A stretch of 64,000 nt of DNA from Solirubrobacter deserti. Lineage in GTDB: Bacteria > Actinomycetota > Thermoleophilia > Solirubrobacterales > Solirubrobacteraceae. Location of the stretch: positions 558,001 to 622,000 of the forward strand of contig NZ_QPKJ02000002.1 in the NCBI RefSeq assembly GCF_003344625.1, written 5' to 3'. Position 1 is the first letter of the stretch; each line of letters opens with the position of its first letter. The position numbers and the translations under genes were made by a program. Shown in pieces: positions 15,601-17,235 of the stretch. The notes beneath the pieces are model-generated. The model searched no databases. It was not told the origin of the DNA and worked only from the letters and a program-made list of their open reading frames with translations.

Positions 15601-16476
15601 TCAAGCGGCGCTTCGCGACGACAGCCGGCGGCTGCGATCGCGCAGCGTGTGCGAGCAGTCCCACAGCGCCGTGGCCAGCTCGCGCTCGCGCCGGACGGTC
15701 ATCCGGCCGCTTCCGCAGCTCGGGCTCAGCAGGCTCCCGTTGCCGGTCGCGCCCGTCACGGCCAGCGCGGCGTCGAGCCGTGCCATCCCGTGCAGCGCGT
15801 GCTCGGCGCGGTGCGGCTGGACGGCGCCCCACATCAGCCGCGTGCCGCGGGCGAGCAGCGTGCGCGCCGCCGTGCCGTCCACCGGCGCGAGCGCGAGGTC
15901 GAAGGAGAGCACGTCCGGCTTGGCGCGCACGACCGCGTCCCACGGCACCGGTCCGCACAGGTGCAGCCCCCAGGCGGGCGCGCACGCCCGCAGCGGGTCC
16001 CACGCGGCGTCGACGCCGTCGGTCCCGAACAAGTGCAGCGCGGGCTCGTCGACCATCAGCAGCGCGTCCAGGCCCCGGTCGGCCAGCGCGCGGACCTGCG
16101 CGCCAGCGTTCGCCGCCAGCCAGCCCGCCAGCTCCCGGGCGAGCGGCAGCCGCTCGCCCAGCACGTGGGCGAGCGTCACCGGCCCGGTGACCTGCAGCTT
16201 GACGACGCCGTGCGCCGGCGGGCGCTCCTGGAGGCGCGCGAGCAGCGTGTCCCACGCGCGCGGCCGTTCGCGGTCGCGCGCCGGCGACCAGCCGCAGCGG
16301 CCCGCGTCGGCCCCGAGCCACTCGCTCACCATGTCGCCCTCGAGCCGCGGCAGCTGCGGGCAGAACGGGATCTCATAGGCCGCGAGCACATGCTCCACGG
16401 CGGCCTCCACGTCCGTGAACGGCAGGCTCCCGACGCCCGTGGTCGCCCACGGCGGAAGCCGTTCCATCTGCCTCAT
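15601..16476 (-). CDS. Core methionine synthase (MetE C-terminal-domain type)
   Basis: 291 residues, equal to only the catalytic C-terminal half of ordinary MetE (about 750). The start at 16476 is preferred because AAGGA sits seven bases upstream and a longer frame would run through the riboswitch. The zinc ligands are recognisable: HLC (H172, C174), an acidic residue in SFDLALA (D193, where MetE has Glu) and SPSC (C254); also GVGSLPF, TGPVTLA and VDEPAL. It should methylate homocysteine to methionine. It lacks the N-terminal folate-binding half, so the methyl donor is uncertain; related core MetE proteins have been reported to use methylcobalamin. A cobalamin riboswitch precedes it, tying expression to B12. 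The closest alternative is a MetE-like protein of unknown substrate. Confidence 0.8.
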   Translation of the reverse strand: MRQMERLPPWATTGVGSLPFTDVEAAVEHVLAAYEIPFCPQLPRLEGDMVSEWLGADAGRCGWSPARDRERPRAWDTLLARLQERPPAHGVVKLQVTGPVTLAHVLGERLPLARELAGWLAANAGAQVRALADRGLDALLMVDEPALHLFGTDGVDAAWDPLRACAPAWGLHLCGPVPWDAVVRAKPDVLSFDLALAPVDGTAARTLLARGTRLMWGAVQPHRAEHALHGMARLDAALAVTGATGNGSLLSPSCGSGRMTVRRERELATALWDCSHTLRDRSRRLSSRSAA

Positions 16477-16528
16477 CGATCGATCCTTGTGCCGAGCGGC
16501 CCATGCTCGCGAGGCCGCGGTTGTCGGT

Positions 16529-16543
16529 GCCCCGTGATGGGGC
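16529..16543 (-). promoter_or_regulatory. Riboswitch expression-platform hairpin
   Basis: Directly after the aptamer on the transcript is a 5-bp GC hairpin (GCCCC-N5-GGGGC). It lies between the P1 stem and the ribosome-binding site of the MetE-type gene. No U-run follows, so control of translation or Rho access is more likely than intrinsic termination. Confidence 0.4.
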
Positions 16544-16703
16544 GGAGTCGACAGGTCTTCGGGCTCGGACGCGATCGAGGCGGCCGCCTTCCCAGGCACG
16601 ATGCCCAGTGGCGAGTGGCCGCGTCGCACGTCCCCACCGCTGCGCGCCAGCTCCGGACTTGGACCGGATTCCCTGACCCGTTGCTTCGGGTGCGATCGAC
16701 TCC
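16544..16703 (-). promoter_or_regulatory. Cobalamin (B12) riboswitch
   Basis: Read on the minus strand, the 5' leader of the MetE-type gene carries the cobalamin-aptamer elements in order: GGGAAUCCGGU, then CCAAGUCCGGAGCUG with CGCGCAGCGGUG, then GCCACU, CUGGGAAGGC, and the B12-box form GAGCCCGAAGACCUGUCG. The closing P1 stem is visible as GGAGUCGA (complement of 16696-16703) pairing with UCGACUCC (complement of 16544-16551). These match the actinobacterial form of the Cbl class from memory. High cobalamin would be expected to lower expression of the downstream gene. The roughly 65 bases between aptamer and start hold a short hairpin and the ribosome-binding site. The divergent thioesterase promoter abuts the 5' end. 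Confidence 0.88.
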
Positions 16704-16746
16704 TCCGGGAAGGCTACCGGCCACCTCCGACGGTACTCTCGGTTGC

Positions 16747-17235
16747 ATGACGCAACGCTCGCGCACCCACGACTGGGCCGACCCGATGATCACCGCCCAG
16801 GCCGCGGCCGAGCTGCCGGGGCTCGAAGCCATCCGCAGGATCGCCGCGGGCGAGCTCCCGCCCCCGCCGATCGCGTCGCTGCTGGACTTCGAGATCACGC
16901 TCGTGGAAGAAGGTCGCGTGATCTTCGCGGTCACGCCGCGCGAGTGGATGTACAACCCGATCGGCTCCGTGCACGGCGGCGTGGCCGCCACGCTGCTGGA
17001 CTCCTCGCTCGGCTGCGCGATCCACACGGTGCTGCCCGCGGGCGCGCGCTACACGACGACCGACCTGCACGTGCGCTACGTGCGCGCGATGACGGCGGAG
17101 ACCGGCCGCGTGCTGGCCGACTCGCGCGTGGTCCACGCGGGTCGCAAGCTCGCCACCTCGGAAGGGCGCCTGTACGCCGAGAGCGACCCCGAGCGCCTGT
17201 TCGCGCACGCGACCACCTCCTGCCTGATCCTCTAA
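16747..17235 (+). CDS. PaaI-type hotdog-fold acyl-CoA thioesterase
   Basis: 162 residues. The hotdog helix motif NPIGSVHGGVAATLLDSSLG, with HGG and the catalytic Asp about six residues on, is typical of the PaaI/YbgC-like thioesterase family; the second half, TTDLHVRYVRAMT, is the matching strand. It should hydrolyse an acyl-CoA, substrate unknown. Frames that extend far upstream cross the riboswitch region of the opposite strand and are not credible. A TACTCT hexamer seven bases before the ATG suggests a leaderless mRNA. It ends 41 bases before the ECF sigma gene. Confidence 0.85.
   Translation: MTQRSRTHDWADPMITAQAAAELPGLEAIRRIAAGELPPPPIASLLDFEITLVEEGRVIFAVTPREWMYNPIGSVHGGVAATLLDSSLGCAIHTVLPAGARYTTTDLHVRYVRAMTAETGRVLADSRVVHAGRKLATSEGRLYAESDPERLFAHATTSCLIL

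Follow-up and report, generated by a model that had tools for sequence, protein, structure and literature searches.

A metE-type cobalamin riboswitch heads the gene for a half-size MetE-like protein in Solirubrobacter deserti and its relatives

Results

A cobalamin riboswitch precedes a core MetE-like gene

The window, a stretch of 64,000 nucleotides from the 7.55-Mb genome of Solirubrobacter deserti, contains a gene for a core MetE-like protein that is headed by a cobalamin riboswitch and lies divergent from a thioesterase gene (Table 1). The original prediction had placed a cobalamin aptamer on the minus strand from its sequence motifs. The covariance search bore this out, with a match to the full RF00174 model that scored 85.1 bits against a gathering threshold of 31.5 bits and was the sole Rfam match over gathering in the 64-kb window. 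The aptamer ends 56 nt from the ATG of the core gene.

Table 1. Features of the riboswitch-core locus (window coordinates)
Feature	Position	Strand	Remarks
Core MetE-like protein, 291 aa	15601..16476	-	Zinc ligands H172, C174, D193, C254; homocysteine residues S17, D143
Deletion junction, 15 bp versus 2,192 bp in L069 (1639-3830, nearly all metE)	16459..16473	-	In frame
Start codon inherited from metE	16474..16476	-	Aligns with the L069 metE ATG (1636-1638)
Shine-Dalgarno AAGGA, 7 nt 5' of the ATG	16484..16488	-	Sequence reading
Expression-platform hairpin GCGGCC-loop(UCGCGA..)-GGCCGC, likely P13/L13	16496..16518	-	Predicted stem, 20-leader consensus
Cobalamin riboswitch aptamer (RF00174), complete	16533..16715	-	85.1 bits, E 1.5e-19, model 1-189
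Aptamer loop GGCGCGCAGCGG with CGCG, likely L5 of a kissing loop	16643..16646	-	CGCG in 20/20 Solirubrobacterales leaders
4HBT thioesterase, divergent	16747..17235	+	PF03061 E 1.3e-12; synteny with L069

The protein, which is 100% identical to one of S. deserti CPCC 204708, had also been predicted to possess the MetE zinc ligands and to lack the folate-binding half, and profile and fold comparison confirmed both. It has the fold known from MesD and the catalytic half of MetE, a barrel with the H-x-C, E or D, and C zinc set together with the homocysteine residues. In fold and catalytic residues it thus agrees with the C-terminal half of full-length MetE, and in relatives the two share an operon; unlike full-length MetE, it has no N-terminal folate-binding half (PF08267), a domain that in G000 gives just one weak match (E 1.4e-4), in a different gene. 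The four zinc ligands and both homocysteine residues were kept in at least 152 of 153 homologues, and the active site was intact in 21 of 21 loci, including all seven solo loci, where the core gene stands without metE. The 291-residue open reading frame has no match in Pfam, none of 50 family members matched PF01717 (Meth_synt_2) at E 0.01, and the core family is outside the coverage of Pfam and NCBIfam.

Among known core synthases, MesB is described as the core MetE of Dehalococcoides and other Wood-Ljungdahl organisms, with Asp in place of Glu665 (PMC7857596; PMC7005905). The S. deserti protein is like MesB in being a half-size MetE with HCDC zinc ligands and Asp for Glu665, and its profile is similar to that of MesB-like half-size proteins (hhalign, 99.96%; 27% identity). 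The aspartate ligand D193 noted in the original prediction is present; the replacement of Glu by Asp was rejected as a special feature, since MesB shares it and 38 of 40 half-size relatives have the HCDC zinc set, including the Asp equivalent to D193. Unlike MesB, the protein is shorter, has its own segment at residues 45-75, is linked to metE and to a B12 riboswitch, and occurs in genomes that have MetH and lack CoFeSP (23/23). The conserved segment that follows residue 45 reads GDM..EWLG.DP.RCGW..RDRERP and is unlike the corresponding segment of MesB-like proteins, and residue C61 is Cys in just 9 of 40 MesB-like half-size relatives. The protein differs from MesD (which occurs with MesX; PDB 3RPD) in giving no profile sequence match to 3RPD, and from the archaeal MesA and MesC (of methanogens and Wood-Ljungdahl archaea, respectively) in that its family is found in Solirubrobacter and relatives of the same class.

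Leader architecture

A platform hairpin just 5' of the ribosome site was common to all 20 leaders compared, a set made up of 18 core-bearing units and the metE units of G011 and G151, with the divergent f5 leaders (L047 and L048) excluded. Three of the six pairs of its stem showed two-sided changes (in 2, 4, and 4 of the 20 sequences), and its loop contained CGCG in 19 leaders and UGCG in one. Judging from their sequences, the L5 aptamer loop would pair with the L13 hairpin loop; since both are nearly invariant, covariation is no test of this contact. In the genus g9, the ribosome site was paired in four of six predicted leader folds (L044, L074, L078, and L045; not L043 or L046), through CUUCUG/CAGAAG in the first three and GUGCUUCU/AGGAGCAC in L045. 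Such pairing was absent from the single-sequence fold of the S. deserti leader, so its OFF direction rests on homology to metE switches. Neither an intrinsic terminator nor a sigma-70 promoter was found in 16300-16900, and the chance expectation for so short a stretch is also none. The aptamer lies only 31 bp (16716-16746) from the thioesterase start, and the riboswitch promoter must therefore overlap the thioesterase gene; no sigma-70-type match was seen there.

The core gene has taken over the leader and start codon of metE

The window and a syntenic Solirubrobacter locus (L069) have in common the leader, the core gene, and the flanking genes on both sides, namely, the thioesterase and a sigma-factor-like gene on one side and a phosphatase on the other. 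Their 84% similarity ends at window position 16474 (L069 position 1638) and restarts at 16458 (L069 position 3831), at the third codon of the core gene. Because the alignment spans the metE ATG and skips 2,192 bp, the core gene reads from the leader, ribosome site, and start codon of metE. The riboswitch is of the same class and in the same position as the metE cobalamin riboswitch of Mycobacterium tuberculosis and Mycobacterium smegmatis, and synteny and leader alignment identify it as the metE element itself; here, however, it drives a core protein free of the folate domain and not MetE.

On a core tree of 21 of the 23 genomes of the family (G349 and G011 left out), the solo S. deserti is sister to Solirubrobacter taibaiensis, which has the operon (support 96/93). 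Its nesting among metE-bearing species indicates that the direction here is loss, not gain. The solo or operon label required at least four changes on this tree, and three-point estimates from NG86 values put dN/dS at ~0.31 along the branch to S. deserti and at ~0.23 along that to S. taibaiensis. An assembly artefact is an unlikely cause of the missing metE, the solo layout being present in G000, G349, and five g9 genomes; G000 and G349 are two assemblies of the same species, possibly of one strain. In two further genomes, metE is frame-broken and the core gene is intact (G352, where its only MetE is in three frames, and G082, in two frames), for which sequencing error is a possible cause.

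Distribution of the core gene and its riboswitch

Within the order, 20 of the 232 genomes searched held strong relatives (E <= 1e-40). To these, 220 genomes sampled from the class added G043 and G131 as well as G011, where the match is a piece at a contig end (E 3e-37), giving a core-family set of 23 genomes from 22 species. Weaker, mostly half-size relatives occurred in 82 of 296 phylum-sampled genomes, the window's own counted, and no relative was encoded on viral contigs. In 14 of the 23 genomes, metE lies directly 5' of the core gene. Such metE-core units have a cobalamin riboswitch 5' of metE in 13 cases, the exception being G346, which is without one on that strand. In 11 of the 14, the metE stop and the core start share an in-frame ATGA or GTGA, with a later start also possible in L075 and L079. 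Overall, the riboswitch heads the core-bearing unit in 21 of 23 genomes (all except G199 and G346). Of the nine genomes without a metE-core unit, eight have the riboswitch directly 5' of the core gene and G199 has none. The eight comprise seven MetE-less genomes and G011, in which the switch-core and switch-metE units are separate. Genomes were scored as MetE-less where the MetE N-domain gave weak matches at most, which was the case for 8 of 23 (7 species: G000, G349, G157, G171, G177, G199, G344 [75% complete], and G345).

Among the seven distinct switch-headed solo loci, the core protein starts at the leader ATG in four, and a short open reading frame comes first in three. In these three (G157, G171, and G011), the switch opens a frame of 20 to 54 codons that ends in ATGA at the core start, much like metE in most metE-core units. 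The short frames begin MARTAV.., MARPAA.., and MARIAA.., compared with MARTAVLG in MetE, and may be stubs of a deleted metE. They resemble metE in the first codons alone, and 17 of 18 local alignments of whole stubs with metE fell within the range of 30 shuffles (the exception scored 64 against a shuffle maximum of 60), so that the case for a metE remnant draws on MARTAV in G157 and on the layout. A short open reading frame with termination-reinitiation at AUGA has been described for the M. tuberculosis ppe2 riboswitch (PMC11260477). The three loci are similar to ppe2 in having a riboswitch-controlled short frame that closes with ATGA where the real gene begins, a likeness of layout; unlike in ppe2, the short frame here may be what is left of metE.

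B12 and methionine genes in the same genomes

The original prediction had pointed to metH as informative, and in S. deserti the gene was found elsewhere in the genome, at C378:622029-625484. MetH was present in all 23 genomes, with contig-end pieces in G345, G290, and G306 and 36% identity in G043 and G131, and MetF was present in 22, being absent from G346 (82% complete). CoFeSP (PF03599) was found in none of the 23; 16 had weak matches, all within MetH, and 7 had no match. Of 16 comparator genomes that encode half-size relatives, 13 had a strong CoFeSP match, the exceptions being G598, G396, and G582. A Wood-Ljungdahl donor, as used in the MesB mode, was accordingly rejected for these genomes. 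MesX (PF08908) was found in 0 of 23 genomes and also in 0 of 14 control genomes, which makes this search uninformative on its absence.

Genes for class I (B12-free) RNR are neighbors of at least 5 of the 14 metE-core units (those of G043, G131, G273, G352, and G290), the five that the neighbor scan covered. In G131 the class I RNR is under its own cobalamin riboswitch. By locus, class I RNR adjoins metE-core at L048:13915-15169, L047, L068, L072, and L076, with the L048 RNR behind a cobalamin riboswitch of its own. From its gene content, this neighborhood appears to be a group of B12-free isoenzymes.

In the S. deserti genome, two other cobalamin riboswitches sit among B12 genes (CobS, CobU, CobN, CobD, CbiX, and CbiQ by Pfam), indicating that the organism probably makes its own B12. 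Three more core-MetE-like genes were present (L054:6446-7447, L054:8476-9591, and L008:1408-2580), of which one comes closest to PRK09121, with a score under its cut-off, and another passes that of PRK06520; no cobalamin riboswitch was found in the loci scanned. Elsewhere in the family, two back-to-back divergent cobalamin riboswitches at L043:7230-7671 serve a periplasmic-binding-protein gene and the core gene. At L137:8518-12723, a 216-residue protein matching the B12-binding part of MetH is encoded near a second MetF homologue, an arrangement present in at least two Solirubrobacter species (L137 and L138). This protein was rejected as a donor, as no link to the core gene was seen.

Discussion

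On balance, we lean towards the view that the gene encodes a MesB-related core methionine synthase that needs no B12, is repressed by B12 in the manner of metE, and is able to outlive metE. The riboswitch is that of metE, metE has been deleted, CoFeSP is absent, and B12-free RNR genes are neighbors; taken together, these findings make an OFF switch on a B12-independent backup the simplest reading. They also remove most of the paradox raised in the original prediction, in which B12 would repress an enzyme that uses it, a difficulty that assumes a methyl-corrinoid donor for core MetE proteins. Of the three ways out offered there, another donor has become the simplest reading, an ON switch is unsupported, and salvage is still a rival.

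The half-size enzyme would be a stand-alone homocysteine methyltransferase, probably serving as a backup to MetH for times of B12 scarcity. In the presence of B12, the aptamer would bind it and L5 would dock on the P13 hairpin beside the ribosome site, so that translation of the core gene would be off and methionine would come from MetH. When B12 is scarce, the ribosome site would open and the core enzyme would be made. The ancestral unit would have been riboswitch-metE-core, usually with a 4-nt overlap of metE and core; deletion of metE in S. deserti would then have given the core gene its start codon and switch. We infer that the switch direction is OFF, by homology to metE switches, and that homocysteine is the acceptor. 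Independence from B12 is, as the simplest reading, presumed for the enzyme, whose methyl donor would be neither methyl-B12 nor a folate held by a second domain. That MetH is accompanied by a partner under B12 repression is the established logic of metE, and the partner here is the core protein.

Several observations count against this view. The characterized core synthases MesA and MesB are described as using methylcobalamin as the donor in vitro (PMC7857596), and it is MesB-like proteins to which this one is most closely related. S. deserti probably makes B12 and has MetH, so the loss of metE need not be compensated. Furthermore, the PRK09121-nearest or PRK06520-type gene might be the real B12-free synthase.

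The main rival, which we regard as unlikely, is corrinoid salvage, a MesB-like methyl transfer from free or protein-bound methylcobalamin to homocysteine. At low B12, the enzyme would strip imported or leftover methyl-B12 for adenosylation of the cob(I)alamin and gain methionine in doing so, with bulk methionine supplied by an adjacent metE. MesB itself is reported to use methylcobalamin in vitro (PMC7005905), and most MesB-like relatives (HCDC in 38/40) come from genomes with CoFeSP (13 of the 16 tested). In G177, the core gene diverges from a periplasmic-binding-protein gene that has a riboswitch of its own, G157 has a riboswitch-headed FhuF-like gene ~4 kb off, and salvage would account for the loss of metE without replacement. 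Against it, CoFeSP occurs in 0 of 23 core-family genomes, the segment after residue 45 departs from MesB-like proteins in a way that suggests another donor, and the B12-free RNR neighbors favor a B12-free role.

Somewhat less probable still is that the protein is no methionine synthase itself and acts in the metE transcript as an accessory of MetE, or as a zinc-thiol methyltransferase with another acceptor or product. Its gene mostly comes second in a metE operon, with a start that overlaps metE (11/14), and the genomes concerned have MetE and MetH in any case. However, it persists in seven MetE-less species, in six of them under the switch, which would be unexpected for a pure accessory, and the homocysteine-site residues are kept. 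An ON switch, by which a methyl-B12-using enzyme would be produced under plentiful B12, would resolve the conflict between a B12 riboswitch and an enzyme that depends on methylcobalamin, and an activating corrinoid riboswitch has been reported (PMC10653944), but such a switch is very improbable here given that the leader is the same as that of the syntenic metE, that the platform is conserved in 20 leaders and the ribosome site paired in four of six g9 leaders, that the M. tuberculosis metE switch is described as translational OFF (PMC11260477), and that endogenous B12 is reported to attenuate M. smegmatis metE strongly (PMC8088520).

Core synthases have been linked, on the one hand, with anaerobes and corrinoid donors and, on the other, with MesX and oxygen (PMC7857596), and among open-licence PMC papers no report linking core MetE with a riboswitch was found. 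More tentatively than the reading favored above, the family could be a fifth kind of core methionine synthase, one that is independent of B12, without the folate domain and without MesX, that uses another donor in aerobic Actinobacteria, and that displaces MetE, metE having been repeatedly removed from its own riboswitch with the enzyme left in place. With a core synthase that B12 represses, in genomes that have MetH but lack CoFeSP, the question of the donor can be put to a direct test. The deletions of metE, for their part, are natural experiments that ask whether MetE can give way to an enzyme of half its size. For annotation, reading the lack of metE as strict B12 dependence may mislead for these soil bacteria. 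By taking over a riboswitch and start codon in frame, the core gene offers a clear example of how a regulon exchanges its enzyme.

At the L042 locus of G199, the core gene is the last of seven co-directional genes in a cluster without a riboswitch. The segment RCGWSP..RDRERP is altered there to RRTWTPERAAREP, and this core protein has possibly changed its function. A SAM-IV riboswitch lies at L042:3213-3335, 5' of a class V aminotransferase gene.
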